IMG/VR virus record: IMGVR_UViG_3300009788_000191
Coordinates: 1 to 39,038 of that record
Direction: 5' to 3' (one strand)
DNA from: a virus
Length of the DNA: 39,038 bases
In this document: positions 1,551-38,096 of the stretch, piece by piece
Numbering within the stretch: position 1 is the stretch's first letter
Layout: every line of letters begins with the position of its first letter
The notes under the pieces: generated by a model
Database searches by the model: none
What the model was told of the DNA's origin: nothing
The model's input: only the letters and a program-made list of their open reading frames with translations
Made by a program: the position numbers and the translations under genes

Positions 1551-1718
1551 TCAGTTCTCCACAAATCTATTATAGTATTCGCTCTTTCTTATCTCATACG
1601 TAGTGAACCTGTTGCCACAATCATTGCAAACACGCCTACGTCGTATTGTTCTTCCGCCTCTTGCACTACGTGTCTCTCTAACCATATCATTCCAGCTACT
1701 ACAAATCTCACACCTCAT
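1551..1718 (-). CDS. Stand-alone NrdR-like zinc ribbon (55 residues)
   Basis: The 55-residue product starts MRCEICSSWNDMVRETRSAR and continues with a TIRRRRVCNDCGNRFTTYE block. This matches the N-terminal zinc ribbon of the ribonucleotide reductase repressor NrdR (MRCPxC ... RRRRxCxxCxxRFTTYE). Zinc ligands are C3, C6, C31 and C34, and the basic IRRRR strand that contacts DNA is kept. The ATP-cone that follows in cellular NrdR (about 150 residues in total) is absent. The start overlaps the portal 3' end by 11 bases. It is probably a small phage DNA-binding regulator; an NrdR-box target or interference with host NrdR is inference. Confidence 0.8.
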   Translation of the reverse strand: MRCEICSSWNDMVRETRSARGGRTIRRRRVCNDCGNRFTTYEIRKSEYYNRFVEN

Positions 1719-3838: not shown

Positions 3839-3858
3839 TGTTGCAACTCCCAACAAGT

Positions 3859-5051: not shown

Positions 5052-5465
5052 TTACTTTCTTAAACTATATTCCTCGCTCTTATTTAAATCACAATATATA
5101 ACTATACTATATGGTCTAGATTCTTTATGTTCATACAAAGGACATCTATAAACGATATACTCATTCTTCTCTTCATGTGGCCTGACAATTGGATACAATT
5201 CCTTTACCATCCTTGCACCACCTGTTGCAGCAGCATTTGTTCTAGCTCCAGACGATAGTTTAGTATACCCAACACTACGAAACACATTGTCAATCTCATC
5301 TATGAACTCAAACACGACTATGCGCTTTTTATCCATAACGGTGAATCGCACACCTTCGTATTCGTGCAACTCGAACTCATTAGTCGCTACGGTATTGAAT
5401 ATATAGGTTGTCTTCTTTCCAAATGTAACAAATGGATGCCCGTTTTTCCAACCATCTAAGCCCAT
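5052..5465 (-). CDS. Hypothetical protein between terminase halves
   Basis: The 137-residue product is not recognised. It is predicted mixed alpha/beta and soluble, with FELHEYEGVRFTVMDKKRIV and an AAATGGARMVKELYPIV block. The ATG overlaps the last ten bases of the terminase ATPase gene, so the two are probably translationally coupled and this is a real gene rather than an intron remnant. It has no motif of homing endonucleases or inteins (no LAGLIDADG, GIY-YIG or HNH). Confidence 0.6.
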   Translation of the reverse strand: MGLDGWKNGHPFVTFGKKTTYIFNTVATNEFELHEYEGVRFTVMDKKRIVVFEFIDEIDNVFRSVGYTKLSSGARTNAAATGGARMVKELYPIVRPHEEKNEYIVYRCPLYEHKESRPYSIVIYCDLNKSEEYSLRK

Positions 5466-6211
5466 ACTTCCACCTCATCAGTTATACATTTAATTATGTC
5501 GTCATAAGAGAATAGCTGAGTTTCATTGTCAACAAACTCACAAAAGTATTCTTGCTTAACCCACCATTCACCCATTCTCTTCATTTCAGTATTTATAAAA
5601 TCATCAGTTATTCTCGGACAGTCACTTGCAGTTATCTTTATCTTAAACCAGTCATCATCACCTACCCAAGCCTTATGGAACCATCCCTGCTTACCAAAGG
5701 GGGTAGTTAGGGCTAAGATCTTACCTCTTGATATGGCTAACATAGGGCGTACTGAGTTGTACAATTCCTCTCCTACTCTTGATGCTTCATCTATTATAAT
5801 AAGAGACACGGCTGAATAAGCACGAATAGTATCCTCTCTACCAGGTAGGCTTAATATTCTACTGCCGTTATCCAACTCTATCTCTGATTGGTTTTCCTTG
5901 ACAATTGCCAAGACAGAGGAGACGAAAGGAACTCCAACCTTTACTTTCCTTAACAACTCCTCAGCTTGGCGATATGCTTTTGATACGATTATTACTAAAG
6001 AATTACTTTTAAAAGCAGCCTGATGTAATGCTAGGGTAGCACTAACTGTTGACTTCCCAGACTGTCTTGAGCAGAGCAACAGAGACTCTTGAGGAAAATT
6101 ATCTAATAGACCAATCTGCCAATCATCTGGCTTCATGTTAAAAGCCTTATACATGAATAACGATGGACTCATGGATGATGCGACAAAATCTTTTAGACTA
6201 GTCTTTTTCAT
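5456..6211 (-). CDS. Large terminase, separate ATPase domain
   Basis: The 251-residue product is the packaging motor half of a large terminase. Walker A is CSRQSGKS at 47-54, Walker B LIIIDE at 137-142, and the coupling motif LTTP at 168-171 is followed by GKQGWFHKAW. It ends around the linker CEFVDNETQLFSYDDI where the nuclease domain normally continues. Here the ORF stops after VEVWA and the nuclease is encoded at 3245-3838. The two products would have to associate, or the ATPase acts with nuclease supplied in trans. It starts four bases inside the end of the kinase gene. Confidence 0.88.
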   Translation of the reverse strand: MKKTSLKDFVASSMSPSLFMYKAFNMKPDDWQIGLLDNFPQESLLLCSRQSGKSTVSATLALHQAAFKSNSLVIIVSKAYRQAEELLRKVKVGVPFVSSVLAIVKENQSEIELDNGSRILSLPGREDTIRAYSAVSLIIIDEASRVGEELYNSVRPMLAISRGKILALTTPFGKQGWFHKAWVGDDDWFKIKITASDCPRITDDFINTEMKRMGEWWVKQEYFCEFVDNETQLFSYDDIIKCITDEVEVWA

Positions 6212-6960
6212 CTTAAAATATCACAAGTTGTAGGACAACTAGAACATGGAGGAATACTAGTCATTACTATTCCCGATCTATATATATTAGTAGGAGTAAC
6301 GAAGCAATCACTTAGCTTGTCTGCTAGTTGATAAACGTTTAACTTACTTACGTCTATGATATGAGCATCGTCGGCAGGCACAACCCAATTAGAGTCTTCA
6401 TCCCTGTCATTTAGAGCTTTAGCAACGCTTTCTTTACTCTCTCCGTACGCAGATCCTTCGTACTTATGTCTCCATCCAACCCTTGATTCAAAGTCGGACT
6501 TAAAAAAGAACTTTACGTCTGCCTCTGGAAACACTGCAGTTCCCATATCTCTTCCGTCAGTTACTACGTCAGACCCTCTGACTTGCGTCCTAAGGCATTC
6601 TTCTACAGCAGCCCTTACAACAGGATAGACTGATAGCTTAGAAGCGCATAGAGTGGTAGAGGGACTTGTTAGTTCTTGCTCTATATACTTAGTTATTCTT
6701 GTTTCATCTCCATGAGCATGTCTTTCTATAGATGACCCAAGCCATTCAATCTTATCTGAAGTAAACCTCATATCCGATACTATCAACGCCATCTTAGAAA
6801 GCCTTGGAGGATTACAATCCTTCTTTCTTTCTAATACTTCTACTGCAAGCGCTCTGTATACTAATCCACTGTTTATATGTTTATACCCCAGTTTATTCGA
6901 CAATATATAAGCAACTGGAGACTTCTTTGTTGCTGCCTTACCGTCTATAGTAATTATCAT
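6208..6960 (-). CDS. Cytidylate-kinase family protein with altered P-loop
   Basis: The product matches bacterial CMP/dCMP kinase (Cmk) across its length: an ITIDG start, INSGLVYRALAV, the conserved DGRDMGTAVFP, an NDRDEDSNWVVPADDAHIIDVS stretch near the C-terminus. The family phosphorylates CMP or dCMP with ATP. The start is set at the ATG at 6960, preceded by GGGGAAAGAAC; an ATG five codons earlier has no SD. The P-loop is unusual: family form GPSGxGKG/ST, here GKAATKKSP, with the second glycine replaced by lysine (residue 12). Catalysis may be weakened or the protein repurposed. The C-terminal tail ends with a cysteine-rich segment PPCSSCPTTC. Confidence 0.75.
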   Translation of the reverse strand: MIITIDGKAATKKSPVAYILSNKLGYKHINSGLVYRALAVEVLERKKDCNPPRLSKMALIVSDMRFTSDKIEWLGSSIERHAHGDETRITKYIEQELTSPSTTLCASKLSVYPVVRAAVEECLRTQVRGSDVVTDGRDMGTAVFPEADVKFFFKSDFESRVGWRHKYEGSAYGESKESVAKALNDRDEDSNWVVPADDAHIIDVSKLNVYQLADKLSDCFVTPTNIYRSGIVMTSIPPCSSCPTTCDILR

Positions 6961-6977
6961 GTGTTCTTTCCCCATAG

Positions 6978-9156: not shown

Positions 9157-9162
9157 ATTTAA

Positions 9163-9191
9163 CTTATACTATGCATGTAGTGTGCTGTCAA
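9163..9191 (-). promoter_or_regulatory. Sigma-70-type promoter for terminase operon, leaderless geometry
   Basis: On the minus strand TTGACA (9191-9186), a 17-base spacer and TATAAG (9168-9163) form a near-consensus promoter. Start of transcription about seven bases on coincides with the small terminase ATG at 9156. The spacer carries CTACATGCATAG, related to a motif in the other control promoters. Confidence 0.75.
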
Positions 9192-9239
9192 GGATTATCA
9201 GATAGAAATTGACAAATAATTTAGGCTAGAAAATAGAAA

Positions 9240-9269
9240 TCCTCCCGACTTTTGCGTTAGAAGGGAGGA
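9240..9269 (-). terminator. GC-rich hairpin in leader, possible attenuator
   Basis: The perfect 7-bp arms TCCTCCC and GGGAGGA enclose a 16-base loop. On the minus strand TTTCTATTTTCT follows. A second GGAGG (9284-9288) can compete for the same CCTCC partner, which would allow alternative folds. It lies between the two minus-strand promoters. Confidence 0.45.
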
Positions 9270-9324
9270 CTTCTACTCTCTTAGGAGGTAGAGACTTTTT
9301 AAAACAAACTTATAGTTAAGCAGC

Positions 9325-9353
9325 AATGTACACTACATACAGAGTGTTGTCAA
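9325..9353 (-). promoter_or_regulatory. Second minus-strand promoter upstream of terminase operon
   Basis: TTGACA (9353-9348), a 17-base spacer and TACATT (9330-9325) match sigma-70 spacing. The spacer contains GTATGTAG immediately before the -10, the same motif found in the early promoter near 10.5 kb. A transcript from here would carry the hairpin at 9240-9269 in its leader. Confidence 0.6.
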
Positions 9354-9551
9354 CAATTATTTATATCTTTAAAGAAAAAAAACTTATAAGTTGCTGATAT
9401 AGCAAAGCCCCATAATCTTTGTTAGGCTAGTTAAACCAAAGAGAACAGGGCTATGCAGGGAATAAGTCTTTATCTACTTTGCAGACTACTATACCGATCT
9501 ACTAAATACAATGCTTATTTATAAATAAGAAAATGGTTGTCATTCCAGCAG

Positions 9552-9573
9552 TATAAAATATTTATATTTTATA
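9552..9573. repeat. AT-only inverted repeat
   Basis: The arms TATAAAATA and TATTTTATA (9 bp) flank a 4-base loop. They are followed by TATATATTC, a pyrimidine tract and phased GTTACAT boxes. The same order of elements recurs at 36570-36673. Confidence 0.6.
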
Positions 9574-9606
9574 TATATTCTTTCTTCTCTCTTCTTTCTT
9601 CTACGT

Positions 9607-9635
9607 GTTACATTGATGTTACATTTCCGTTACAC
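9607..9635 (+). repeat. Three phased boxes GTTACAT, 11-bp period
   Basis: GTTACAT lies at 9607-9613 and 9618-9624, and GTTACAC at 9629-9635, with exactly 11 bp between starts. The preceding pyrimidine tract from 9591 is identical to that at 36607 for 23 bases including the first box. The boxes lie upstream of the minus-strand terminase promoters and just past the 3' end of the radical-SAM gene. Confidence 0.8.
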
Positions 9636-9639
9636 CATC

Positions 9640-10350
9640 CTAAAGACCACTGATACTGCAATTCTTAACCATAGGTTTAACTATTTTTAAGAAGCTAATC
9701 ATCTCATCTTCCGGTATGAAAGGATTTTCACCATTGAAGAAACCCTTGTTTAATATACAAGCTACGTTTCTATTATATGGCTGCAAGGTATATCGTTTAG
9801 CATCTTTTATTAAATAACATATTTGTTTTATTGTTTCTTTGTCTATTAAAGAATTGACACAAGTAGTTCGAAACTCATAATCAGTAGCACTGCTCATAAG
9901 TATATCAATACTCCTTCTTACTGCATTCACAACATTTGTTTCAGCCGTGAACGGCCTGTATAGAACTCCTGACGGGTATGTCTTGATATCCATTGAGATG
10001 TAATCTATAAGCTTGCGATCTAACAACTCAGATAATACATCTGGTCTACTTCCATTAGTGTCAAGCTTTAATTTATAACCCATCTTCTTTATAGAATAGC
10101 ATAGATCCAATAAGCCATCATCAATAGTTGGCTCTCCTCCGCTTATTACTATTCCATCGTATATATTCTTTCTTTCTTTAATAAGATCCATTATTTCTTT
10201 TACATCCACTCCTTCTTTTTCTTTATTCAATACTGTCTGTGGATTGTGACAGTACGGACAGGAGAAGTTACACCCAGAAACAAACAGGACACAACTTATT
10301 TTTCCATAGAAATCATTTAATGATACTTTCTCAATACCAATAATTAACAT
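9640..10350 (-). CDS. Radical SAM activase, NrdG2-like
   Basis: The 236-residue product carries the radical-SAM CxxxCxxC cluster motif (C27, C31, C34 in SGCNFSCPYCHNPQ), GGEP at 71-74 and a DTNGSRP strand. The CHNPQ form and overall size match the NrdG2 branch of anaerobic ribonucleotide reductase activating proteins, which use a 4Fe-4S cluster and S-adenosylmethionine to make a glycyl radical. The start is at 10350 after AAAGGAAATAT; longer readings pass through the leader hairpins. No class III reductase gene is in the window, so it may activate a host enzyme or do other radical chemistry. It lies alone between the two main transcription units. Confidence 0.8.
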   Translation of the reverse strand: MLIIGIEKVSLNDFYGKISCVLFVSGCNFSCPYCHNPQTVLNKEKEGVDVKEIMDLIKERKNIYDGIVISGGEPTIDDGLLDLCYSIKKMGYKLKLDTNGSRPDVLSELLDRKLIDYISMDIKTYPSGVLYRPFTAETNVVNAVRRSIDILMSSATDYEFRTTCVNSLIDKETIKQICYLIKDAKRYTLQPYNRNVACILNKGFFNGENPFIPEDEMISFLKIVKPMVKNCSISGL

Positions 10351-10369
10351 ATATTTCCTTTGGCATATT

Positions 10370-10430
10370 AAAAAGAAAGCCCCGTATCTGAGGCAAATAC
10401 GAGGCTCGTGGGGTTGCTCCTTTCGGAGCA
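10370..10430 (-). terminator. Two-hairpin leader with intrinsic terminator before radical-SAM gene
   Basis: On the minus strand a 6-bp hairpin TGCTCC-GAAA-GGAGCA (10430-10415) is followed by a 10-bp stem AGCCTCGTAT/ATACGGGGCT (10406-10378) with a 9-base loop, then TTCTTTTT. This is a strong rho-independent terminator 20 bases before the radical-SAM start codon. It either ends transcription entering from the upstream side or acts as an attenuator. Confidence 0.75.
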
Positions 10431-10509
10431 CAGAAAGAACACATGGCTACCCTATCAATAACATTTTGATAGTCAACTAAATAAAAATAAACTTTTTTTA
10501 AAAAAGTAC

Positions 10510-10538
10510 TTGACATCGAACACCGTATGTAGCATATT
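10510..10538 (+). promoter_or_regulatory. Early plus-strand promoter
   Basis: TTGACA (10510-10515), a 17-base spacer ending GTATGTAG, and CATATT (10533-10538) form the best promoter facing the plus-strand operon. The first gene starts at 10582. The spacer motif is shared with the promoter at 9325-9353. Confidence 0.65.
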
Positions 10539-10581: not shown

Positions 10582-11097
10582 ATGGAAAAGACTGCTAGAC
10601 AAGAAACCAACTCAAATGAAAATGTATACGGATTCTTAGTAGGAAAATATGACCTAGAAGACTACTCTAAGAAGATAAGCCAGATGTTGAAAAGAGGAGA
10701 TGTAATCAACGAAGAATGTCTTACAAATAAATATGGCAGGCTAGTAGAAAACTTAAGGGATCGTACCTTTGAATTAAAAGTAGCAACTGAATATATCTCA
10801 TCTAGAATATCTAATGTTACTGGAATAATAGAGGTAGCAAAAGTATTAGACGAAACCATTCACGATTTTGAAGTAAACGGACTAGAAATAGACGGTGATG
10901 GTCCATTAGATGAAGCTGAACACATTCTATTACGAATAGAGAACATAGACGGAACCTTATTTACTGATAGAGAAAAATGTATATACGCTATGGCCGATAT
11001 ACTTGAGTATTATTTTGAATTAGACGAGGCAAGAGAATTCTTTGACGCTGTATATCTTGGTTATTATGAGAGAGAAGAAAATATCAACGCTAATTAA
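10582..11097 (+). CDS. Acidic hypothetical protein, first early gene
   Basis: The ATG at 10582 follows AGGGGGTAAAG. The 171-residue acidic, mostly helical product has no motif I recognise (LVGKYDLEDYSKKISQML, HILLRIENIDGTLFTDREKC). First genes of phage early operons often encode host-takeover or anti-defence proteins, but nothing in the sequence shows this. Confidence 0.65.
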   Translation: MEKTARQETNSNENVYGFLVGKYDLEDYSKKISQMLKRGDVINEECLTNKYGRLVENLRDRTFELKVATEYISSRISNVTGIIEVAKVLDETIHDFEVNGLEIDGDGPLDEAEHILLRIENIDGTLFTDREKCIYAMADILEYYFELDEAREFFDAVYLGYYEREENINAN

Positions 11098-11113
11098 TCT
11101 GGGGGAGAGAACA

Positions 11114-11377
11114 ATGCCTAAAAAGACAGTAATAAAAACTCTGACTAAAGCCTTAGAGGAAGGATTGCTACCAGTAAGACCAAGAACGGTGTACGGATGG
11201 ATACAAGAAGGAAAATACCCTGATTTAATCTTTAAGTTGTTCGGAAAAATAGTAATAGATCTTAGTGAACTAGATAGTATGGTAAAAGAAGCAAAACAAA
11301 GTAGAAAGCATTTCGGATGTTCGGGTAATTGCACATGCAATAAAAGATCTCATGCAAAAAAAATTAGGAAAAGATAA
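11114..11377 (+). CDS. AlpA/excisionase-like HTH protein with Cys-rich tail
   Basis: The start is at the ATG at 11114 behind GGGGGAGAGAAC; a longer frame from 11042 has no SD. The 87-residue product has a MerR-type winged HTH: RTVYGWIQEGKYPDLIFKLF then a KIVIDLSELDSMV wing. The C-terminus is basic and has HFGCSGNCTCNKR, three cysteines that may bind metal. Probably a small transcription regulator or architectural DNA-binding protein. It is the first of three such genes in this operon. Confidence 0.65.
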   Translation: MPKKTVIKTLTKALEEGLLPVRPRTVYGWIQEGKYPDLIFKLFGKIVIDLSELDSMVKEAKQSRKHFGCSGNCTCNKRSHAKKIRKR

Positions 11378-11502
11378 TGACGATACCTAACATACCCATA
11401 ACACCAGATATACCAGCACTTAAGCTTGCTGTGATAGCGGACTCCTCAATAGTAGTAGAAACAATAAGATTTCTAACAGATATAATAAGGTTTATCTTTT
11501 AA
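11377..11502 (+). CDS. 41-residue small protein
   Basis: The ATG overlaps the preceding stop (TAATG). The product starts MTIPNIPITPDIPALKLAV and has a Pro/Ile pattern followed by a hydrophobic-amphipathic helix ending IIRFIF. It could associate with the membrane. Function unknown. Confidence 0.5.
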   Translation: MTIPNIPITPDIPALKLAVIADSSIVVETIRFLTDIIRFIF

Positions 11503-11518
11503 ATATAGCGAGGCCGAG

Positions 11519-12157
11519 ATGATCAGAACATACAAGATTACACTAGATGATAAAATGTTAGAAGAACACAAACCAAAAAGGCCAAGAAAAGCAAACAAAG
11601 AAATAAAATTAGCCGAGTCTATCAAATTAATGGCTAATGAGGGTTTCGCTCTTGTACTAAACTCATTCATAGCAAGAGAGCGTAGAAAAAGTAAAGTTTT
11701 TTGGGAAGGAACTCCAACTTCATTGATTGTTGCTTTGAATGCTGAGAGAGAACACTATTTTAAAGATTGTATTAATATCAGTTATAGACTTTGGCCTAAT
11801 AATCCTTCTTCTCTGTCAAAAAAATTAGCAAAGATATCCAAAGCTTTAAAAACAAAAGGTATTCATGTCATTTTGGGCCTGAGAGATAGTGTTGGACGCC
11901 GTATTACCACAATAAGTTGGGAGCCATCTAATATATATAAAAATAGCAACTCCGATGAAGAGAATGTAGTTTATAGAAATACAGAACCAGACGTATATAA
12001 AAAAGAGATTTTACCAAAACAAATTAAGACTGTGTCGTTCAGAGTTCCTGTTGAATTATGGGAGGCCTTTCGTATAAGAGCATTAAAGGAAAGGACTTCG
12101 ATGCAGAAAATAGTTATAAATCTTATTAATTCGTACCTAGATCAGGAAAAGTTTTAG
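11519..12157 (+). CDS. Winged-helix plus ribbon-helix-helix DNA-binding protein
   Basis: The 212-residue product joins two DNA-binding types. Residues about 55-140 (FWEGTPTSLIVALN ... RLWPNNPSSLSKKLAKISKA ... GRRITTISW) resemble the winged-helix domain found at the C-terminus of phage D5-type primase/helicases. Residues about 165-212 (IKTVSFRVPVELWEAFRIRA ... MQKIVINLINSYL) look like a ribbon-helix-helix of the Arc/CopG type. No primase or helicase active site is present. It is probably a sequence-specific DNA-binding protein, and a candidate ligand for the phased GTTACAT boxes (inference). Confidence 0.6.
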   Translation: MIRTYKITLDDKMLEEHKPKRPRKANKEIKLAESIKLMANEGFALVLNSFIARERRKSKVFWEGTPTSLIVALNAEREHYFKDCINISYRLWPNNPSSLSKKLAKISKALKTKGIHVILGLRDSVGRRITTISWEPSNIYKNSNSDEENVVYRNTEPDVYKKEILPKQIKTVSFRVPVELWEAFRIRALKERTSMQKIVINLINSYLDQEKF

Positions 12158-12183
12158 AGCGTTACTTATAAGGAGGTGTAGAG

Positions 12184-12384
12184 ATGATAAGAAGATACGA
12201 AGCAACAGTTGAGGAAAAAGATCACCACACTGTAATATCAGTATCAGAAAGAAACAGAATGCCTATATCAAGTGATACAGTTTATAAAATAGCAGATGAT
12301 CTCGATGCCTTAACAGAAATAACAAACCTTGTCTTATCAATTAATGATTCTAACAAATATAACTTTAATAATGAAATTAAATAG
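12184..12384 (+). CDS. Hypothetical small protein
   Basis: The ATG at 12184 follows AAGGAGGTGTAGAG, a strong ribosome binding site. The 66-residue product is charged with a helical C-terminal half (YKIADDLDALTEITNLVLSI). No domain recognised. Confidence 0.55.
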   Translation: MIRRYEATVEEKDHHTVISVSERNRMPISSDTVYKIADDLDALTEITNLVLSINDSNKYNFNNEIK

Positions 12385-12394
12385 GGAGAATACA

Positions 12395-12457
12395 ATGTTA
12401 TTTTTAGCACCTTTTTTATTCTACGCAACAATGATGGTAATAGCATCTGTTATGTAA
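12395..12457 (+). CDS. 20-residue membrane peptide
   Basis: The ATG at 12395 follows AGGGAGAATAC. The product MLFLAPFLFYATMMVIASVM is hydrophobic from end to end, long enough for one membrane span. SD quality and fit between its neighbours (10 bases each side) support it. Function unknown. Confidence 0.5.
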   Translation: MLFLAPFLFYATMMVIASVM

Positions 12458-12467
12458 GAGGAGAGCA

Positions 12468-12665
12468 ATGGAGATTGAAAACCTTTTGGAGGCTTCGGAG
12501 GTTGCCTCCATCATAGGGATAAAGAAAGAAACATTAAGGTCATGGAGGGCAAAGAGGGTTGGCCCTCCCTTCATAAAAATACAAAAAACAATAAGATACA
12601 ACAAGGACGATTTATCTGAATATCTAAATGAAAAAGCTAAGGGGACAACATGTACAACAAAGTAA
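12468..12665 (+). CDS. AlpA/excisionase-like HTH protein
   Basis: The ATG follows AGAGGAGAGCA. The 65-residue product has the HTH_17/AlpA layout: LLEASEVASIIGIKKETLRS, then WRAKRVGPPFIKI and a RYNKDDLSEYL wing. The family includes excisionases and small transcription activators. There is no integrase here, so regulation is the more likely role. The 3' end overlaps ssb by 16 bases. Confidence 0.75.
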   Translation: MEIENLLEASEVASIIGIKKETLRSWRAKRVGPPFIKIQKTIRYNKDDLSEYLNEKAKGTTCTTK

Positions 12666-13045
12666 CAATAATCGGTAACTTAGGAAGAGATCCAGAGGCA
12701 AAGCAAAGTGGATCTGGAACTGACTTCTCTACATTCTCTGTGGGAACTCAGAATAGAAGCGAAGATAAAACAGAATGGTTTAACGTAGTTGCTTTTGGAA
12801 AAGTTGGCGTAGCTTGTAGTGAGTATCTAAAAAAGGGAGATAAAGTATTTGTAGAAGGACCATTAAGAAGTAACGAGTGGGAAGATGGTGAAGGACTTAA
12901 AAGAACTAGCTATTCTGTAACTGGAAACACTGTTAAGTTCTTATCACCAAAAAAAGAAAGCTTTGATCGACCTGATGATAATGGGCAGAGAGAGGATCCC
13001 TCTTCCCTTACACAAAGTAAATTGGATAAAGACATTCCTTTTTAG
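12650..13045 (+). CDS. ssb: Single-stranded DNA-binding protein
   Basis: The 131-residue product is a bacterial-type SSB with an OB fold: YNKVTIIGNLGRDPEAKQSG, TEWFNVVAFGKVGVACSEYL, KKGDKVFVEGPLRSNEW. It ends in the acidic tip DKDIPF (residues 126-131), the signature that recruits partner enzymes. It protects single strands during replication and works with the exonuclease and annealing protein downstream. The start overlaps the preceding HTH gene. Confidence 0.92.
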   Translation: MYNKVTIIGNLGRDPEAKQSGSGTDFSTFSVGTQNRSEDKTEWFNVVAFGKVGVACSEYLKKGDKVFVEGPLRSNEWEDGEGLKRTSYSVTGNTVKFLSPKKESFDRPDDNGQREDPSSLTQSKLDKDIPF

Positions 13046-13052
13046 AGGTGAC

Positions 13053-13232
13053 ATGGGATTCAATCTTGTAACAGAAAAACAAGTGTCAGAAATGTTAGGG
13101 GTCACATTAGATACTGTAAGAAGATGGAGGAGAGAGAATCGTGGCCCTTCTTTCCTTACTCTAGGAAAACTAGCACGATACGATAGAAAAGATATAGAGG
13201 AGTTTAGAAACAAAAAAAGGAGGAAGAAATGA
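13053..13232 (+). CDS. AlpA/excisionase-like HTH protein
   Basis: The start is at the ATG at 13053, behind AGAGGTGAC; a longer frame inside ssb has no SD. The 59-residue product (LVTEKQVSEMLGVTLDTVRR, WRRENRGPSFLTLGKLARY) is a full MerR-like HTH with wing and a very basic end. It resembles the product of 12468-12665 closely enough to suggest duplication. Confidence 0.7.
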   Translation: MGFNLVTEKQVSEMLGVTLDTVRRWRRENRGPSFLTLGKLARYDRKDIEEFRNKKRRKK

Positions 13233-13759
13233 AAGCAATAGTAATGGCAATAGCATCTTTAATAGCATACCTAGTAATATTAACATTGGTAACAGTGCTT
13301 ATACTGCTATGCATATCTAAATCCTTCAAGAATACAAGTGAAGCATGCTTTAATCATCGAACTCAAAGCACAATGGCTATGGCTACTCCATGTGGAGTGC
13401 AGTATCAACATTATATGTGGTACAATCCTAGCAACTATCATTTTGGATATCAAATTGTTGGAGAAGGATTACCACTTATTGGTAGGCCTGTGAATTATGG
13501 ACCACCGTACATGCCTAAGATACCTGTGGACAAAGAGAGACTAACTGCAAAATCGGTAAGCTTTTTAGACGATCCAGATGCTTATCATTTTCCTATCGAT
13601 CCGTTATCATTAGATCAAGAGGTGACGATGGAATTTGCAAGAGAAGCTCTTAGGTTTAAATTAAATCGTATGTTCGAAGAGATAGTGGTGGATGAGTCGT
13701 TTAATGATTTTGCAATGGGGAGATGCGCAGGATTGGATATAATAGGAACTGTAGCATAA
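13229..13759 (+). CDS. Membrane-anchored hypothetical protein
   Basis: The ATG follows AAGGAGGAAGAA and overlaps the preceding stop. The 176-residue product has one N-terminal membrane helix (about residues 3-29, AIASLIAYLVILTLVTVLIL), then a Tyr/Pro-rich segment and a helical acidic C-terminus. No domain recognised. An inner-membrane anchor with a soluble domain is likely. Confidence 0.6.
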   Translation: MKAIVMAIASLIAYLVILTLVTVLILLCISKSFKNTSEACFNHRTQSTMAMATPCGVQYQHYMWYNPSNYHFGYQIVGEGLPLIGRPVNYGPPYMPKIPVDKERLTAKSVSFLDDPDAYHFPIDPLSLDQEVTMEFAREALRFKLNRMFEEIVVDESFNDFAMGRCAGLDIIGTVA

Positions 13760-13779
13760 AACAGATGGGGAGAAAGAAC

Positions 13780-14055
13780 ATGGAATGGAAAAAGGCTTTA
13801 GTGGCAGTATCATTAGGAGTGATAGTAAGTTCTGGAACTTTAGGTTTCTCATATAGTGTTGAAAGCAAGAAGTTTGCTCCATTCGTAAAAGTTAAGAGAG
13901 CAGAGATTGGTAATGCGGGAAAAACAGAGATGACAATGGCATATGACTTCGGATATAAGATTCTAAGTGGGGCAATAGAGAGAACTGAGATGGATATTAG
14001 AGGCGGATTTGGAAATCCTTTGGATTTCGTACCTAAAGATGATCTTACTCAATAG
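13780..14055 (+). CDS. Exported or anchored small protein
   Basis: The start is at 13780 after GGGGAGAAAGAAC. The 91-residue product has an N-terminal hydrophobic segment after MEWKK (ALVAVSLGVIVSSGTLGFSY), a signal peptide or anchor, followed by a polar domain. No recognised family. It may be a periplasmic protein expressed early. Confidence 0.5.
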   Translation: MEWKKALVAVSLGVIVSSGTLGFSYSVESKKFAPFVKVKRAEIGNAGKTEMTMAYDFGYKILSGAIERTEMDIRGGFGNPLDFVPKDDLTQ

Positions 14056-14065
14056 GAGCTGAAAA

Positions 14066-14761
14066 ATGACCTCGAAACTTCCTTCTGTTACAGAGATCTG
14101 CTGCCTTCACATAGATAGGCATTGGTTTCCACCTGGGTGCGCTGAGAGAGGATCTAAGGTGCACTCATGGGCAAATCACTTTTTAAACAATATTTGGGAT
14201 CCATTTGTAGAGGAAGAGTACCCAAACTATGTAACAGGACTTAAAAAATGGTTTGAAAATAACGAAGCTAAGATTATTTTCGGAGAAGGCAACTTAATTA
14301 ACAAGGAATCTGGATTTAGAGGACATCCTGATTTTGTAGGAACAATAAAAGACGAAGATGGATTTGGCCTGATAGATTTCAAGACATCTAATTCTGTACA
14401 ACCCTGGTGGAAGTTACAACTTGCTGCGTACGCAAGCTTAGCTGAATGTAATAAAGAAGAAATAGGAATAGATAAATTGTCATGGGTAGCTTCTCTAAGC
14501 GTTAACAAAGAAGGAGAAGTTACATTTAATAAGTATGATAAGAAAGAGATAGATAAGGAACCGCTGAAGAAGTTTATGAACATGTTGTATTTTTACACTA
14601 GGTGGTATACTCTTTCTAATAAAGAGGACAATGAGTTCACAAAAAGTATGAGCTTATTATCAAAGAAGTTTGGACTATCTACACAACAATTATTAGCAAA
14701 TTATGTTAGGTATAATGCTGTTCACCATAAATCACATTTCAACAAAGTAAAAGGAGCTTAG
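14066..14761 (+). CDS. PD-(D/E)XK exonuclease (RecE/lambda-exo role)
   Basis: The 231-residue product carries the PD-(D/E)XK nuclease core: a GxxxH-type helix with H33 (AERGSKVHSWA), HPDF with D89, GLIDFKTS with D104 and K106, and the QxxxY helix LQLAAYASL (Q118, Y122). This motif order is that of RecB-like and phage recombination exonucleases. With the RecT-type gene after one small gene, it would resect DNA ends for single-strand annealing recombination. Confidence 0.82.
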   Translation: MTSKLPSVTEICCLHIDRHWFPPGCAERGSKVHSWANHFLNNIWDPFVEEEYPNYVTGLKKWFENNEAKIIFGEGNLINKESGFRGHPDFVGTIKDEDGFGLIDFKTSNSVQPWWKLQLAAYASLAECNKEEIGIDKLSWVASLSVNKEGEVTFNKYDKKEIDKEPLKKFMNMLYFYTRWYTLSNKEDNEFTKSMSLLSKKFGLSTQQLLANYVRYNAVHHKSHFNKVKGA

Positions 14762-14762
14762 T

Positions 14763-15008
14763 ATGTCAAAGTTAGAAGATTGGTGCAATGATAAAGGTCT
14801 GAGCCAACAACAGAAAGTGGAAGTGAAAAAACATATAAGAAAAGACGGAGGAGAGTCTGTAAGAGATAAGAAGCTGTTTGATTTCCTATCAGAAAAAACA
14901 CCACCAGAGCTAGCAAAGAGCAACTATTTGTATATGAGCTGCGATGCTACAGTTAAAGTAGGCGGAGGACCTAACAACGGATCCGAAAAGAAACCAGAAA
15001 ATAAATAG
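14763..15008 (+). CDS. Hypothetical protein between exonuclease and annealing protein
   Basis: The ATG follows AAGGAGC, one base after the exonuclease stop. The 81-residue product is hydrophilic and helical (MSKLEDWCNDKGLSQQQKVE) with a Gly/Asn-rich tail. Its place inside a recombination cassette suggests an accessory role; no motif proves it. Confidence 0.6.
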   Translation: MSKLEDWCNDKGLSQQQKVEVKKHIRKDGGESVRDKKLFDFLSEKTPPELAKSNYLYMSCDATVKVGGGPNNGSEKKPENK

Positions 15009-15015
15009 ACACATT

Positions 15016-15033
15016 GCCCGCTGCAATGCGGGC
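15016..15033 (+). promoter_or_regulatory. GC-rich hairpin before recT-like gene
   Basis: The perfect 6-bp arms GCCCGC/GCGGGC enclose the loop TGCAAT, standing out in AT-rich sequence. There is no U-tract, so it is not a typical terminator. It lies 20 bases before the start codon at 15053, just ahead of the AGGAGG site, and may protect or regulate the downstream message. Confidence 0.5.
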
Positions 15034-15052
15034 GTAACAATAGGAGGAACAC

Positions 15053-15940
15053 ATGAAATCTATAAGCATAACTAGAATAGAAGATATTGAGAGATTGGCA
15101 GAAGGTGTAGCTAAGGGATATGCAATAGCAAAGAAGATACCTAGAAGAGGTGATAGAGTACCTGACGAACTCACAAAGAAAGAATACGTATTCATGACAA
15201 TGGTAATGGGATTAGAGATAGGTATGAAACCTATGCAAGCTCTTCAAAACATAAGCCTTATAGATGGAAAACCTGTCTTGTGGGGAGATGGAATGATAGC
15301 AGTTGTTAGAGACTCTGGCGAGTTAGAATCTTTCAATGAATCATACTCAAATATTGACTATGATTCAACAAAGATGACTAGAAAGCAACTGTCAACAGAT
15401 GTTTATACTGATGACTTCTGTGCCATATGTAAGATAAAGAGAAAAGGGTATGAAGAAAAGATATACAAGTTTTCAGTAACAGACGCTAAGATAGCTAATC
15501 TGTGGTGTTTTACTACTGATGTTAAAGGTAAGCAATACACTCCCTGGTATAAATATCCAAAAAGAATGTTGCAGATGAGGGCAAGGTCATGGGCCTTAAG
15601 AGATACTTTTGCTGATCACTTAGCTGGGTTCTCTACAGTAGAGGAAACAAGGGATATACATCAACAGTACGACGTTGTTGCTGACAATACTCCAGATGAC
15701 GTTATAATAGAAGCAAAAGAAACAGTTACCAAAGAAAAACCTAAGAAAAAAATAGAGAAAAAAGAAAACAAATTGACTGATCCTACAGGTAGTGGTAGAG
15801 AGAAGGAAGAAAGAATTAAAGAATACGTATCTCACCTAGCTAAAACATTAAATAGAAAAGAAGAAAACATAGTCGAAAGAGCTAACAAGAACTTTGAACC
15901 ATTCTACTCAAGTTATTCAGATTGGTCTGTAGGAGAGTAG
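15053..15940 (+). CDS. recT: RecT-family single-strand annealing protein
   Basis: The 295-residue product matches RecT-type annealing proteins: FMTMVMGLEIGMKPMQALQN, LIDGKPVLWGDGMIAVVRDS, then FSVTDAKIANLW and YPKRMLQMRARSWALRDTFA, followed by DHLAGF. Residues after about 215 form a charged Lys/Glu-rich tail and an end domain. The protein coats and anneals complementary single strands produced by the exonuclease. The start follows AGGAGGAACAC. Confidence 0.85.
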   Translation: MKSISITRIEDIERLAEGVAKGYAIAKKIPRRGDRVPDELTKKEYVFMTMVMGLEIGMKPMQALQNISLIDGKPVLWGDGMIAVVRDSGELESFNESYSNIDYDSTKMTRKQLSTDVYTDDFCAICKIKRKGYEEKIYKFSVTDAKIANLWCFTTDVKGKQYTPWYKYPKRMLQMRARSWALRDTFADHLAGFSTVEETRDIHQQYDVVADNTPDDVIIEAKETVTKEKPKKKIEKKENKLTDPTGSGREKEERIKEYVSHLAKTLNRKEENIVERANKNFEPFYSSYSDWSVGE

Positions 15941-15976
15941 CTTTATGGTGATTGATGAAAGTCTTTGGGAGGAGAC

Positions 15977-16708
15977 ATGAGCAAACTTACATGGTCAAAA
16001 TGGTTTTGGGATGCACATTCAAAGAGCTGGAGAGGGCATCCCTTATGGATGGAAGGTGCATGGATGAGGGTGTTGGAACAATTGCATTCGTCTAAGGAGA
16101 CAGGGGTCATGTCGAGACCCATTAACTCTTGGGCTATGATAATAGGTTGTACAGAAAAAGAAGCAGATGAGTTTATAAAACATATAGATAAATATGACCT
16201 AGCTTCTGTGGAATTTGGTGATGACATTACAATATCATCAAGAAGAATGATTAGAAATGAAGAAGAAAGAAACGGTACTGCTGATAGAGTAAGAAAACAT
16301 AGAGCAAAAAAAGTAGAAATAAAAACAGAGGTCAAGGAGAAAAAAGCTACAAATAGTAAGAGCTCTGAAAGAAGATCAGATATGCTTAAAAAACTTAGAG
16401 AAGCATATCCACAAAATCGAGCGCATCTCCAACCTTCAACACAAAGAGAAGAATTTAAAAAGATAATGATTGAATGCTCTAAGAATATTGCACCAAACAA
16501 TAAAGAAGTAGAAGAGATGGCATTATTCAAAAAGATACAGACACGTATAATGACCATGAGTGACACTAGTGAGTGGACAAAAGAAGACGGTAAGTTTGTT
16601 CCAGGTCTCGGCAACTTCTTAAAGTCTAGGGCATGGGAAACAAGTCATGTTATAAAAGCTGACGTAAAGAAGATAAAAGAACACGAAACTAATAATCTTT
16701 GGGGGTAG
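15977..16708 (+). CDS. Replication initiator/DnaD-like protein
   Basis: The start is at the ATG at 15977 after GGGAGGAGAC. The 243-residue product has an N-terminal winged-helix region (WFWDAHSKSWRGHPLWMEGA ... ISSRRMIRNEEERNGTADRV) like phage replisome organisers and DUF1376 proteins. A basic linker follows. The C-terminus is typical of helicase-loading partners (LFKKIQTRIM, EWTKEDGKFVPGLGNFLKSR). With the DnaC-like gene next door it should recruit the host helicase to the phage origin, as lambda O does with P. Confidence 0.7.
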   Translation: MSKLTWSKWFWDAHSKSWRGHPLWMEGAWMRVLEQLHSSKETGVMSRPINSWAMIIGCTEKEADEFIKHIDKYDLASVEFGDDITISSRRMIRNEEERNGTADRVRKHRAKKVEIKTEVKEKKATNSKSSERRSDMLKKLREAYPQNRAHLQPSTQREEFKKIMIECSKNIAPNNKEVEEMALFKKIQTRIMTMSDTSEWTKEDGKFVPGLGNFLKSRAWETSHVIKADVKKIKEHETNNLWG

Positions 16709-16710
16709 CT

Positions 16711-17472
16711 ATGAAGCTTGATCTGTTTAGCAATGGAAAAGGATCTTGTTGCAAGTGTGGAGCAGAAACTGAATACAAATTAATAAGATATTGCGAAGAA
16801 TGTTTCGAGTCAGAGCAGAAACGAATAGACTCAGAGGAACGGATACAAAAGAGATCAATGCTACTTTCTTCATCAGGAATTCCTAGAAAGATGAGAGATA
16901 ACGGATTAGACTCATTCTTGCCGACTTATAATCAAAAGAAAGCAATAAGCTTATTAACAAATCAGATAGAATCATATGGCACCGAAACTAGTTGGCAACT
17001 TCCTTATCTATACGGATCTCCAGGCACAGGAAAAACTCTAATAGCTATAGCTTCTTGTATTGAGTTCATAAACAGAAGAAACGCAAGTGTTAAGTATATA
17101 CATGTTCCAGATATAATGATAGATAATGAGTTCTATAAAGAAAATAAGTCGATGATGCAGTCTTGTCAAATGCTTGTGTTAGATGACATAGGTCACCATA
17201 ATACGAATCAATACTCTATAAATATGTTATACAATATAATAAATTATAGACTAATGAATCAGATGGGAGTAATGATAATAAGCAACTTTTCTGTAGAAGA
17301 GCTTACATACAAGTTAAGCAAAGATAATGATAAGATAAATGATATGACATGCGTTGCTTTAAGAGATAGAATAATGGAAATGTGCTTACCAATAGAGATA
17401 AAAGAAGAGAACATAAGAATTAGAAAAGCTATAAAAAGAACAAAAGATAGATATAAACACTTAGGAATATAA
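16711..17472 (+). CDS. DnaC-like helicase loader ATPase
   Basis: The 253-residue product is an AAA+ protein. Residues 12-31 hold a Cys cluster (SCCKCG ... YCEEC), a likely zinc finger. Walker A is GSPGTGKT at 102-109, Walker B MLVLDDIG around 154-161, sensor region MIISNFS, and an arginine-bearing ALRDRIMEM motif. This is the DnaC/IstB-like loader family, which opens the replicative helicase ring. It begins two bases after the initiator-like gene and overlaps rusA by one base. Confidence 0.85.
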   Translation: MKLDLFSNGKGSCCKCGAETEYKLIRYCEECFESEQKRIDSEERIQKRSMLLSSSGIPRKMRDNGLDSFLPTYNQKKAISLLTNQIESYGTETSWQLPYLYGSPGTGKTLIAIASCIEFINRRNASVKYIHVPDIMIDNEFYKENKSMMQSCQMLVLDDIGHHNTNQYSINMLYNIINYRLMNQMGVMIISNFSVEELTYKLSKDNDKINDMTCVALRDRIMEMCLPIEIKEENIRIRKAIKRTKDRYKHLGI

Positions 17473-17855
17473 TGAAACGTATTTTCTTTATACCTGGACC
17501 ATTGCCGTCTATGAATGAGATAATAACAGCAAGCTCAACAGTTCTAAAAGGCGGCATAAGGTTTGGTTCTAAATATTCAGTAATGAAAAAGAAATGGCAA
17601 AAAATAATATCAGATATAGCAATATCAGAAGGAATAAATCCTGTTGTAGGTACCTACACTTGTAGTTTTGATTGGATAGAAAAGACAAGAAGAAAAGACC
17701 CTGACAATATATCTGTTGGAGTTAAATTTATCTTTGATGCACTTGTAGAAGTAGGGATCCTTGAGGGAGACACCTGGAGATTCAACAAAGGATGGGCAAA
17801 TACTTTCTCTACAGGAAAAGCACCAGGTGTAACAGTTCATATTTATGAATATTAA
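17472..17855 (+). CDS. rusA: RusA-like Holliday junction resolvase
   Basis: The 127-residue product has the RusA layout: IPGPLPSMNE near the start and RRKDPDNISVGVKFIFDALV with the paired acids D76 and D78, then GILEGD, where D100 fits the third catalytic acid. RusA is a metal-dependent resolvase of Holliday junctions, needed to clear branches before packaging. The ATG overlaps the previous stop (TAATG). It is the last gene of the plus-strand operon. Confidence 0.85.
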   Translation: MKRIFFIPGPLPSMNEIITASSTVLKGGIRFGSKYSVMKKKWQKIISDIAISEGINPVVGTYTCSFDWIEKTRRKDPDNISVGVKFIFDALVEVGILEGDTWRFNKGWANTFSTGKAPGVTVHIYEY

Positions 17856-35100: not shown

Positions 35101-36483
35101 CTAGAATAAAGAAGGAGCCTCACAACGTTTCTTGTCAGATACTTCCATGCCAGCCTGTAGGCTGTAATCAACCTTACGTTCTACTGCTTTTTCTTTAATA
35201 GCTTCCCCAACTAAAGAAGCAATGGCTTTGAGTTCTTTCGTTTCTGTTTTTTCTAAGAAGTTTGGACAGAATTTAACTTTCTCATAGCCATTGATTGCAA
35301 CTACTAAAGCAGAGCGTTGCTCTTCTCTTTCTCTCATAGCATCTGCAATAGCGCCTCTAAGTTCTTCTGGAGCGGTAGCTAATACATCCTGCATTGTTAC
35401 TGGGGCCTGTGGCTTTTCTTCTTTTGCTTCTACAACATTACAAGCATTAACTTCAGCTTTATCTTTCTTTTCTTCCATCTTGGTTTCCTTTTTAGCAAAT
35501 TCAGATTTCAAGAGCCTGTTGGCCATCTTTTGGGCAGACGCCCTAGCACCTTCTGATATTTTAGCTTGTGCGCCCCTACCAGATAGCACCGCTCTCAATG
35601 CACCTTCGTTTAGTTTGTTAGTAGATGGGTCAACAACAGGGAAAAATATTAAATCATCGCTAGTCTTAGCTCTAGAATCACCCAATAATGTCTTCGAAGC
35701 TATCCAATCCTTAGCAGATGATGATAACTCAGTTACATCAGATGGTAAAACTTCTGGTTTATTGGCCTTAAGCTGGCCGTAGTAAGCTTTTATATATTCA
35801 TGAAGGTCTTTACTAATATCTCCCCATGAAATACTCTCCACGCCTGAGTAAGCCGGCTTCCTAGAAACTACTCTAGTAGCGTTAACTAATTCTTTTTCTC
35901 CATTCATTCTTATTCCACATCCGTCAGACCAACTGCACGCACCCAATACATCGGGTAATACAGCTAAATGGTCACCAACAATGTTAGTCATGCGTTGTGT
36001 GTAATCAGTACCATTAAAGTTTCCCTTTTCATGGATTATATCTCCGAATGCACCTACGCTCAACTCTATTTTATCGCCTTGACGAATTTTGTCAACAATA
36101 AATTCACCTCTATCCTTATCTAACCATAGATCGGCTCGTAATTTGTTTCCTACCTGGTCAAACATAGCATTGAATACATATCCAATAAGTTGACCGTCTA
36201 GAACATAAGGAACATTACAAGAGGTGTTGCCAATGGGGTGATACAACGATACTGGTCTGCCATTCCATGTGTGCACGCTCTCAGATATGTCATCTCCATC
36301 AAAGTATAGAGACACAGGATCTTCGAAAGTACTAACAGCTGGAGTGAATGCTCCTTCTACCAACATGATAGATGGAACTATATAATAATTCTTACCAGCA
36401 AAACTACCATCGTTGATAATTACTTGGTCATCAAGGAAATCACAAGTGATAAGAACACTTCTTAACTCTGACTTCGCTGTCAT
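35101..36483 (-). CDS. DUF2213 prohead protease with scaffold tail
   Basis: The 460-residue product has a DUF2213 protease domain in residues 1-195: WNGRPVSLYHPIGNTSC, KIELSVGAFGDI (serine), RMTNIVGDHLAVLPDVLGAC and SDGCGIRMNGE (histidine in DHLAVL). The middle has a FFPVVDPSTNKLNEGALRAV block found after DUF2213. The last 130 residues are charged and helical (KMEEKKDKAEV ...), typical of internal scaffolds. It organises the prohead and then cuts itself and the scaffold. First gene of the capsid operon. Confidence 0.82.
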   Translation of the reverse strand: MTAKSELRSVLITCDFLDDQVIINDGSFAGKNYYIVPSIMLVEGAFTPAVSTFEDPVSLYFDGDDISESVHTWNGRPVSLYHPIGNTSCNVPYVLDGQLIGYVFNAMFDQVGNKLRADLWLDKDRGEFIVDKIRQGDKIELSVGAFGDIIHEKGNFNGTDYTQRMTNIVGDHLAVLPDVLGACSWSDGCGIRMNGEKELVNATRVVSRKPAYSGVESISWGDISKDLHEYIKAYYGQLKANKPEVLPSDVTELSSSAKDWIASKTLLGDSRAKTSDDLIFFPVVDPSTNKLNEGALRAVLSGRGAQAKISEGARASAQKMANRLLKSEFAKKETKMEEKKDKAEVNACNVVEAKEEKPQAPVTMQDVLATAPEELRGAIADAMREREEQRSALVVAINGYEKVKFCPNFLEKTETKELKAIASLVGEAIKEKAVERKVDYSLQAGMEVSDKKRCEAPSLF

Positions 36484-36512
36484 GCCATCTCCTTATAAAA
36501 ATTAAAGTTATG

Positions 36513-36518
36513 ATTATA
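36513..36518 (-). promoter_or_regulatory. Minus-strand -10 box for capsid operon
   Basis: A perfect TATAAT lies about 30 bases before the protease start codon. At the -35 place (17 bases further) is TCCAAT, a poor match. ATTACATACTGTG lies in the spacer. A consensus -10 without -35 is what activator-dependent promoters show; the phased GTTACAT array lies about 105 bases upstream. Confidence 0.5.
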
Positions 36519-36569
36519 TAACACAGTATGTAATCATTGGAAAGAGTTTATTTCAGTAGCCCTCGCGCG

Positions 36570-36600
36570 TATATAGAGAATACGTAGTATTCTTTATATA
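36570..36600. repeat. 14-bp inverted repeat (palindrome)
   Basis: The arms TATATAGAGAATAC and GTATTCTTTATATA pair with one G-T mismatch around a 3-base GTA loop. It lacks a T-tract and is followed by the pyrimidine tract and phased boxes. It may form a cruciform, be a dimeric protein site, or help strand opening at an origin. Confidence 0.8.
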
Positions 36601-36622
36601 CTCTTTCTTCTTTCTTCTACGT

Positions 36623-36673
36623 GTTACATCGCTGTTACATTTCTGTTACATAGCCGTTACATTTGCGTTACAT
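36623..36673 (+). repeat. Five phased boxes GTTACAT, 11-bp period
   Basis: Five perfect GTTACAT heptamers start at 36623, 36634, 36645, 36656 and 36667, each exactly 11 bp apart, with non-conserved 4-base spacers. One box per helical turn puts the sites on one DNA face. The conserved heptamer with variable spacers shows selection on protein binding rather than simple duplication. Confidence 0.93.
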
Positions 36674-36860
36674 AGATTCTATGATTCATAACTAACTGTA
36701 TAAACTGTATATTCGTAACTACAGGATCCTGTACAAATACTGTGTTAATTGATAAAAAAACAACAAATATACACTAAAACACTACATATAGTACTTAACC
36801 ATGACACCAGATGTAGCGCTTTAGTTGTTTTTACTGTTAAAATAGAGACAAGAAACGGAC

Positions 36861-36933
36861 TTGTAACAAGTTTGTAACAACATTGTAACGGTAATGTAAC
36901 ACGAATGTAACAGCAATGTAACAAGAATGTAAC
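36861..36933 (-). repeat. Seven phased boxes ATGTAAC/TTGTAAC, 11-bp period, inverted
   Basis: On the plus strand GTAAC starts at 36863, 36874, 36885, 36896, 36907, 36918 and 36929, exactly every 11 bp, preceded by TT (first three) or AT (last four). This is the same heptamer as the 36623 array but in the opposite direction. The two arrays face each other across about 190 bp. Confidence 0.93.
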
Positions 36934-37085
36934 AAATAACTGTAAGTATGTGTAATGCTTATACTTTAATTCAATGAAACGTAAAAGAGTCTCTTTCTAG
37001 TTTTAGACGATTACAAACAGATAGGAGCGATTACAAGTAAATATTGCAATTGCTCCTTAGAAAAGCTTTGTTTATCTGTCTTTAT

Positions 37086-37113
37086 TTGATACAAGAGCGA
37101 GCATCTGTATAAT
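37086..37113 (+). promoter_or_regulatory. Strong plus-strand promoter
   Basis: TTGATA (37086-37091), a 16-base spacer and TATAAT (37108-37113) make one of the best promoters in the window. It faces the 3' end of the minus-strand thyA/membrane-protein unit, so its transcript would be antisense or a short regulatory or primer RNA. Confidence 0.6.
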
Positions 37114-37131
37114 ATTGAATAGGATACAGAT
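37103..37131. repeat. 8-bp inverted repeat over promoter
   Basis: The arms ATCTGTAT and ATACAGAT flank 13 bases and overlap the -10 box at 37108-37113. A dimeric repressor bound here would block the plus-strand promoter. Confidence 0.6.
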
Positions 37132-37234
37132 AGACGAGAGAAAACGTTTAGTTGTACATTCAGTATAACAAGTAACATCAGACAAAATGTATAGGGAAGT
37201 TGAAAATAAAGAAAGCATTATGATCATTCTTATA

Positions 37235-37393
37235 TTAATCTTCATGCTCTAATCTTTCCTTCTCTTTCTCTTCAAGAGTTTCATTTCTAATATAAGGAAA
37301 GAACATAACAGAAATAACACCAGCTGAACAAATTAACAGGACGCCAAGAACAACATAGGCTAGTACGAATATTATATCTAGTAATGTACCCAA
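37235..37393 (-). CDS. Small single-span membrane protein, holin-like candidate
   Basis: A TTG start at 37393 lies eight bases after GGGAG, just past the ThyA stop. The 52-residue product has a hydrophobic segment (about residues 4-32, LLDIIFVLAYVVLGVLLICS and on) and a highly charged tail ETLEEKEKERLEHED. One membrane span with a charged tail is the shape of several small holins, but also of other phage membrane peptides. Confidence 0.55.
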   Translation of the reverse strand: MGTLLDIIFVLAYVVLGVLLICSAGVISVMFFPYIRNETLEEKEKERLEHED

Positions 37394-37394
37394 T

Positions 37395-38096
37395 CTAATG
37401 TCTCCCTACTCTTATTTTAGCTATTTCCTCAGTATGTCCATATATATGTAGCCCTTTACTAGCCACTATCATCTCTCCGTCTAGTACGCCTATCTCGCTA
37501 GCCATAAACTCTTTAAGATATTGTATTCCGGCTAGATTAGCAGGTAGTCCAGCCCATGCCTCCCAAGACCTAAAATATATAAAAAAGTGAAGTTTGTTGT
37601 CTTGTATACGAGTATCTATGTGTCTTAAACAAGGAGGATCTACGAGCATGATATCCTCTATCTTTCCAACTTGCATTATGTTTTGGTTAGATCTGTGACC
37701 CTTCACCCTATATGATAATATTGTTTGGGATATCTGGTCAATCTTAGGCAAGCTCCTTTTAGATCCTACAAGCCTCTCTCCATAAGTATATTCTTCGTTG
37801 TCTGCTATACTGTTAGACATTATATATTCTACGTACGATCTTTCTACACCTTCTCCACCTTCTATATATTTAATGTCTACAGGGTTTGGTATTCCTAAGT
37901 GATCTGGTACTTGAGGAACCAAAGGAATAGTTCCAGGATGCTTAACTCTAGCCGTGAAGTAATCAAGCTCTATCCTATCTTCTCCTGCATACGAGCCAGA
38001 ATCTATTTTAAACCTTCTACCTTTACTAACAAGCGCATGAAGACTTTGAAACCAAAGGTCTGGTAAGTCAGTTGCCTCAATATTAACTATGTTCAT
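37395..38096 (-). CDS. ThyA-superfamily thymidylate synthase or hydroxymethylase
   Basis: The 233-residue product resembles thymidylate synthase of the archaeal-like, shorter type. Conserved residues: EYTYGERL (103-110), catalytic Cys156 in VDPPCLRHID, Arg176 in FRS, Asn187 in GLPANLAG and His217/Tyr219 in LHIYG. Asn187 is at the position that reads uracil rather than cytosine, so dUMP is the expected substrate. Product could be dTMP or 5-hydroxymethyl-dUMP; motif reading cannot separate these. The SD is GGGGAGGGG. No folate reductase gene is seen. Confidence 0.8.
   Translation of the reverse strand: MNIVNIEATDLPDLWFQSLHALVSKGRRFKIDSGSYAGEDRIELDYFTARVKHPGTIPLVPQVPDHLGIPNPVDIKYIEGGEGVERSYVEYIMSNSIADNEEYTYGERLVGSKRSLPKIDQISQTILSYRVKGHRSNQNIMQVGKIEDIMLVDPPCLRHIDTRIQDNKLHFFIYFRSWEAWAGLPANLAGIQYLKEFMASEIGVLDGEMIVASKGLHIYGHTEEIAKIRVGRH

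Follow-up and report, generated by a model that had tools for sequence, protein, structure and literature searches.

Phased arrays of a seven-base box at predicted late promoters in a phage genome record

Genes around the arrays

The window, by which we mean the whole stretch of DNA analysed, consists of a single IMG/VR virus record, 39,038 bases long. Its structural genes run leftward from 36483 to 17852, a terminase/portal block runs leftward from 9156, and a rightward gene block (10582-17855) encodes three HTH_17 proteins, an RHH protein and SSB-like (assigned by reading of the sequence only), exonuclease, RecT-like, initiator-like, DnaC-like and RusA-like proteins. The two genes that open the leftward operons are:

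35101-36483, minus strand: first gene of the structural operon, head maturation protease-like, assigned to promoter P1
8608-9156, minus strand: first gene of the terminase operon, an HTH protein and probable small terminase, assigned to promoter P3

A query with the terminase found a relative, IMGVR_UViG_3300024265_000021, of 42,080 bases, whose terminase is 94% identical and which is probably circular because its ends overlap by 127 bases. The portal protein, used as a query against genome contigs, returned no relative and hence indicated no host. With the protein encoded at 10582-11094, 54 further loci were returned as weak matches over 80 residues, and Rfam and tRNA searches gave no matches.

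Three arrays of one box at an 11-bp step

Three arrays of a 7-bp box, each box 11 bp from the next, are present in the window:

36623-36673, minus strand: array 1, part of predicted late promoter P1; five boxes, ATGTAAC on the transcribed strand, 11-bp step
36674-36860, no strand: AT-rich spacer between arrays 1 and 2, 187 bp, with an imperfect inverted repeat at 36756-36832
36861-36933, plus strand: array 2, candidate promoter P2; seven boxes, 11-bp step
9607-9635, minus strand: array 3, part of predicted late promoter P3 of the terminase operon; three boxes, 11-bp step

In array 1, GTTACAT starts at 36623, 36634, 36645, 36656 and 36667. The boxes of array 2 end at 36867, 36878, 36889, 36900, 36911, 36922 and 36933 and read, in order, three times TTGTAAC and four times ATGTAAC, inverted relative to array 1. 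The preliminary description had reported these two facing arrays, five GTTACAT and seven inverted copies in 11-bp phase, and we confirm both, with a gap of 187 bp between them; it had overlooked array 3. Its statement that they lie in a long non-coding region also holds, but the extent of that region is corrected to 36484-37071, its right end being set by small ORFs on the minus strand (37072-37245 and 37235-37393) that are conserved in the relative.

The 4-bp spacers inside arrays 1 and 2 all differ from one another. When runs of one 6-mer repeated at a fixed step of 8-14 bp were counted, the longest had 7 copies in the window versus 2-3 in 30 dinucleotide shuffles, and GTTACATN4GTTACAT, with up to 3 mismatches allowed, matched the window 20 times versus 5.7 expected, a count of 20 or more being reached in 0 of 100 shuffles. 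A weight-matrix scan of the window found no phased boxes beyond arrays 1-3. All three arrays share one orientation, with ATGTAAC pointing to a -10-like element: arrays 1 and 3 point leftward into the late operons, 140 bp and about 450 bp upstream of the structural and the terminase operon respectively, and array 2 points rightward. The folding energy of the 187-bp spacer is ordinary (z -0.4), leaving a hairpin reading of it without support.

The terminase operon is separated from array 3 by a leader (9157-9560, minus strand) that is strongly structured (z -5.6), shows 9 compensatory pairs relative to the relative phage and contains a terminator-like hairpin at 9230-9269. It is possibly an attenuator or a small RNA; given the hairpin, one might speculate about antitermination at this operon.

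The boxes are conserved in a relative

The relative keeps arrays 1, 2 and 3 at matching places, with 5, 7 and 4 boxes. When the two genomes, the relative being the one close relative on which these figures rest, were aligned box by box, 2 of 105 positions had changed in the boxes versus 9 of 48 in the spacers (Fisher p 0.0005). Array 1 has five boxes in both phages, with a single substitution, in a spacer. Array 2 differs by an indel of exactly 11 bp that keeps the phase, the relative having 7 boxes together with degenerate boxes and one extra 11-bp unit. Thus, since boxes vary less than spacers and the indel is exactly one step long, both the box word and its phase are under selection. Conservation of the 187-bp spacer was mostly 88-96% per 25-bp bin, with one bin at 72%. 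Phased boxes, whose absence from homologous phages the preliminary description had named as counter-evidence, are therefore carried by the homologue.

In the relative, the fourth box of array 3 stands where the window has an NrdG-like radical-SAM activase gene (9640-10431, minus strand), which directly adjoins array 3 and is absent from the relative. It was probably inserted recently at the edge of the promoter, or replaced what stood there. An NrdG query gave distant matches only, the best of them (45%, in Desulfotignum) not being decisive for the host.

Arrays 1 and 3 share a promoter module

The regions of P1 and P3 have a 24-bp exact match, at 36606 and 9590, which extends into a purine tract. 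On the transcribed minus strand, both have the same order of elements, namely array, purine tract, TATATA, AT palindrome and first late gene, and the purine tract of both reads ACGTAGAAGAAAGAAG..AAAGA. The elements of these two modules, of P2 and of the early promoter are:

36601-36622, minus strand: purine tract of P1, ACGTAGAAGAAAGAAGAAAGAG, between array 1 and the -10-like element
36595-36600, minus strand: TATATA, candidate -10 of P1, 22 nt from the last box
36569-36601, no strand: AT-rich palindrome of P1, 15-bp arms and 3-bp loop, which overlaps the -10 region and is mostly retained in the relative
9578-9606, minus strand: purine tract of P3, ACGTAGAAGAAAGAAGAGAGAAGAAAGAA
9572-9577, minus strand: TATATA, candidate -10 of P3, 29 nt from the last box
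9552-9573, no strand: AT palindrome of P3, TATAAAATATttATATTTTATA
36960-36965, plus strand: TATACT, candidate -10 of P2, 26 nt from the last box
10510-10538, plus strand: early promoter of the plus-strand operon, TTGACA, 17 nt, CATATT; no boxes

In the relative, P1 has TATAAT 6 nt further on, one A-T pair of the P3 palindrome is replaced by G-C in a compensatory manner, and the stretch from the last box of array 2 to TATACT is nearly identical. By our reckoning the last box would lie near -35 to -48 in P1-P3. A -35 element in register was looked for at P1, P2 and P3, and none was found. In contrast, a perfect TTGACA stands in the early promoter, which lacks boxes. Set against this constitutive early promoter, P1-P3 would thus look like the pattern expected of activator-dependent late promoters. 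The distance from array to TATATA differs by 7 nt between P1 and P3, which counts against the explanation by activator-dependent late promoters.

Candidate binding proteins

Four proteins of the rightward block are candidates for binding the boxes:

13053-13232, plus strand: candidate binder 1, HTH_17, BldC-like
12468-12665, plus strand: candidate binder 2, HTH_17, 91% identical in the relative, with the recognition helix unchanged
11114-11377, plus strand: candidate binder 3, AlpA-like, with a Cys-rich tail
11519-12157, plus strand: candidate binder 4, with a C-terminal RHH (Arc-like) domain

The best NCBIfam match of the protein at 13053-13232 is BldC (2e-6, below the family cut-off), a PDB sequence search likewise led to BldC (E 0.14; matches to 6AMA and 6AMK), and its structure model (pLDDT 74) gave Foldseek matches to RdfS, RacA, BldC and Xis, all with weak E-values. 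HTH_17 and RHH queries in viral contigs returned only the relative. We would rank the three BldC/AlpA-like winged-helix proteins first, the RHH protein next and a host regulator of the OmpR/PhoB type last. To our knowledge, many phages encode HTH_17 (AlpA/BldC/excisionase-like) proteins, few of which have known targets.

A model of activator arrays at late promoters

Arrays 1 and 3 precede both late operons, share promoter sequence and are kept in the relative, which bears out one option of the preliminary description, that of late-gene activator sites. We consider it probable that the arrays are the activator-binding regions of phage late promoters. The boxes would be occupied by a small DNA-binding protein that the early operon encodes, the likeliest being one of the three BldC/AlpA-type winged-helix proteins; one 7-bp box would be bound per helical turn, with the proteins side by side on one face of the DNA. 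The bound protein, which we infer to activate rather than repress, would bring host RNA polymerase to promoters in which a -10-like element is present but a -35 is lacking. The structural operon would be transcribed leftward from 36483 under P1 (array 1) and the terminase operon leftward from 9156 under P3 (array 3), and P2, with array 2, would fire rightward from about 36970. Array 2, however, faces convergent genes, which counts against the late-promoter explanation; the product of P2 would therefore be a short or antisense RNA.

In the predicted P2 RNA (36966-37100, plus strand) there is a stable hairpin at 37023-37057 (z -2.1), and beyond it the RNA would run antisense to the small conserved ORFs at 37072-37393.

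More specifically, and tentatively, a phage BldC/AlpA-like protein may form a sequence-strict filament with one subunit per 11-bp turn and act as master activator of the late genes, the 12 boxes of P1 and P2 then serving as a bidirectional hub that switches on the virion operon together with an opposing RNA. As far as we know, late-gene switching in tailed phages is mostly unknown outside a few models. Phased and conserved arrays offer a readable, testable code in which box number, step and orientation can be changed separately, and the locus is a candidate operator for three HTH_17 proteins at once.

Similar arrays in other phages

Other phages carry, at several genes, four GTTACA in 11-bp steps that lie about 20 bp before sigma-70-like promoters. 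These phages, apparently marine, encode a peptidase with relatives in cyanophages and in a Pelagibacter phage. As these arrays come from other metagenome phages, arrays of this kind recur in unrelated phages. The looser pattern of four GTTACN6 units occurs in more than 119 stretches of viral contigs, a raw count that is uninformative, many of them being simple 11-bp tandem or coding repeats. Apart from the relative, the pattern TGTAACNNGTAGAAGAAAG matched three further viral contigs, and these matches were set aside as chance; these contigs have no arrays and no protein in common with the window. No phased array was found in the 24.3 kb scanned of the Manatee Spring phage, which encodes a protein annotated as prtN and homologous (33% identity) to that at 13053, nor in six capsid relatives (L129-L134), one of which, L129, begins inside the protease gene and so misses the control region.

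Comparison with known systems

The closest known layout is, by analogy, that of the P-box of Pseudomonas aeruginosa, an array of repeats 10-11 nt long, usually four, which stands before the phage-tail-like pyocin genes and is bound by the small activator PrtN (PMC4905994). As there, 5, 7 and 3 boxes stand at 11 bp here, and arrays 1 and 3 lie upstream of late operons. Unlike in the P-box, as many as 7 nearly identical boxes follow one another here at a strict 11-bp step, their word is ATGTAAC N4 whereas that of the P-box is ATTGnn(n)GTnn(n), and no protein of the PrtN family (PF11112) matched in the window, in a search whose controls gave sub-threshold matches only. The likeness would thus be one of working, and membership is not claimed. 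GafY/GafZ of the Caulobacter GTA and AlpA of P. aeruginosa show that degenerate promoters, combined with antitermination, can serve to switch late operons of the phage-like kind. They resemble the present case in the positive control of phage-like late operons and in the downstream terminators; the portions of the published accounts drawn on here report no repeat arrays for them, unlike here, and place AlpA between -10 and -35.

The fold of the HTH_17 candidates is that of the winged-helix filament proteins BldC, RdfS and Xis, which bind cooperatively and head-to-tail to direct repeats (PMC5859096, PMC11963761). BldC forms such head-to-tail multimers on direct repeats in 9-bp steps (PMC5859096), a geometry that the 11-bp step here does not match. 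Furthermore, BldC repeats are AT-rich, AATTXXXX(C), whereas the boxes here are sequence-strict and of another word, and RdfS has no clear motif, again unlike the strict boxes here.

Alternative explanations

The same arrays of late promoters might be bound by the RHH protein at 11519-12157, with one dimer per 11-bp box, a serious alternative, though one we regard as unlikely. Binding to repeats of 11 bp is known for RHH proteins: ParR of plasmid R1, itself of this kind, needs at least two of them (PMC9426499). The domain has PHROG Arc-like repressor matches and persists in the relative as a free 55-aa protein, to which the window protein adds about 150 aa N-terminally, its presumed DNA-contacting strand being nearly unchanged. 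The RHH matches are weak, however (E 4e-4 to 1.5e-3), the structure model is uninformative, giving one long helix and no RHH, and the protein is less conserved (63-73%) than the HTH_17 protein at 12468 (91%). A host response regulator of the OmpR/PhoB family, coupling late expression to a host signal, is an unlikely occupant of the boxes, even though their geometry is exactly that of the PHO boxes of PhoB/PhoP, which are 7-bp direct repeats with a 4-bp spacer (CTGTCAT N4). Other PHO boxes read GTTCACC in 11-bp repeats and TCACAGC N4 (PMC9019756). The GTTACA arrays just upstream of sigma-70 promoters in marine-metagenome phages also speak for such a regulator. It would have to come from the host, since a search of the phage for a Trans_reg_C protein found none; moreover, PHO boxes usually come as pairs, and 5-7 boxes at late promoters would be unusual for a phage without other host-signal genes. 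That the arrays instead silence the late genes early in infection, through a repressor filament, seems quite unlikely. For BldC, which coats DNA, it has been proposed that RNA polymerase is sterically excluded and transcription thereby repressed, but the boxes here lie upstream of the -10-like elements without overlapping them, and promoters without a -35 would need an activator.

The preliminary description had also offered a replication origin and a centromere-like site, and neither fared well. That the initiator-like protein (15965-16708) binds the boxes as iterons next to an AT-rich unwinding region is a very unlikely explanation: AT-rich sequence adjoins the arrays, and an initiator-like protein and a DnaC-like loader are encoded, but the architecture is found at the starts of two late operons as well as at array 2, GC skew tracks gene strand with no change at 36.7 kb, and the initiator gene lies 20 kb away. 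No iterons were found in the replication genes. Least probable of all is a partition centromere (parC/parS-like) or an attP/excisionase binding region. The parC site of R1 has, by the title of a reference given in PMC9426499, ten direct repeats flanking a promoter, and its 11-bp repeats resemble those of the window; HTH_17 proteins, for their part, include excisionases. Unlike in R1, the arrays here sit in predicted late promoters, array 3 in that of the terminase, and no partition ATPase was found: a search of the phage for a ParA-type ATPase gave none while its controls matched, and in the search for ParM (StbA) the control itself gave no match. Against an attP site, searches for tyrosine and serine recombinases (PF00589, PF00239) found none in this possibly incomplete record, with controls that matched. 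The activator arrays set out above remain the explanation we prefer.

Other features of the genome

Among the further genes of the window, a thymidylate synthase-like gene lies at 37395-38096, and a cytidylate kinase is encoded at 6208-6975 on the minus strand (PF02224, 1.4e-33). The large terminase subunit is apparently split into an ATPase ORF and a nuclease-like ORF (5456-6211 and 3245-3856, minus strand), which lie 1.6 kb apart and are both kept in the relative. In the portal protein (1708-3243, minus strand), an XRE-type HTH domain (PF12844, 1.5e-9) precedes the portal domain as an N-terminal fusion, and the homologue in the relative aligns over the full length, with 84% identity over 522 aa.
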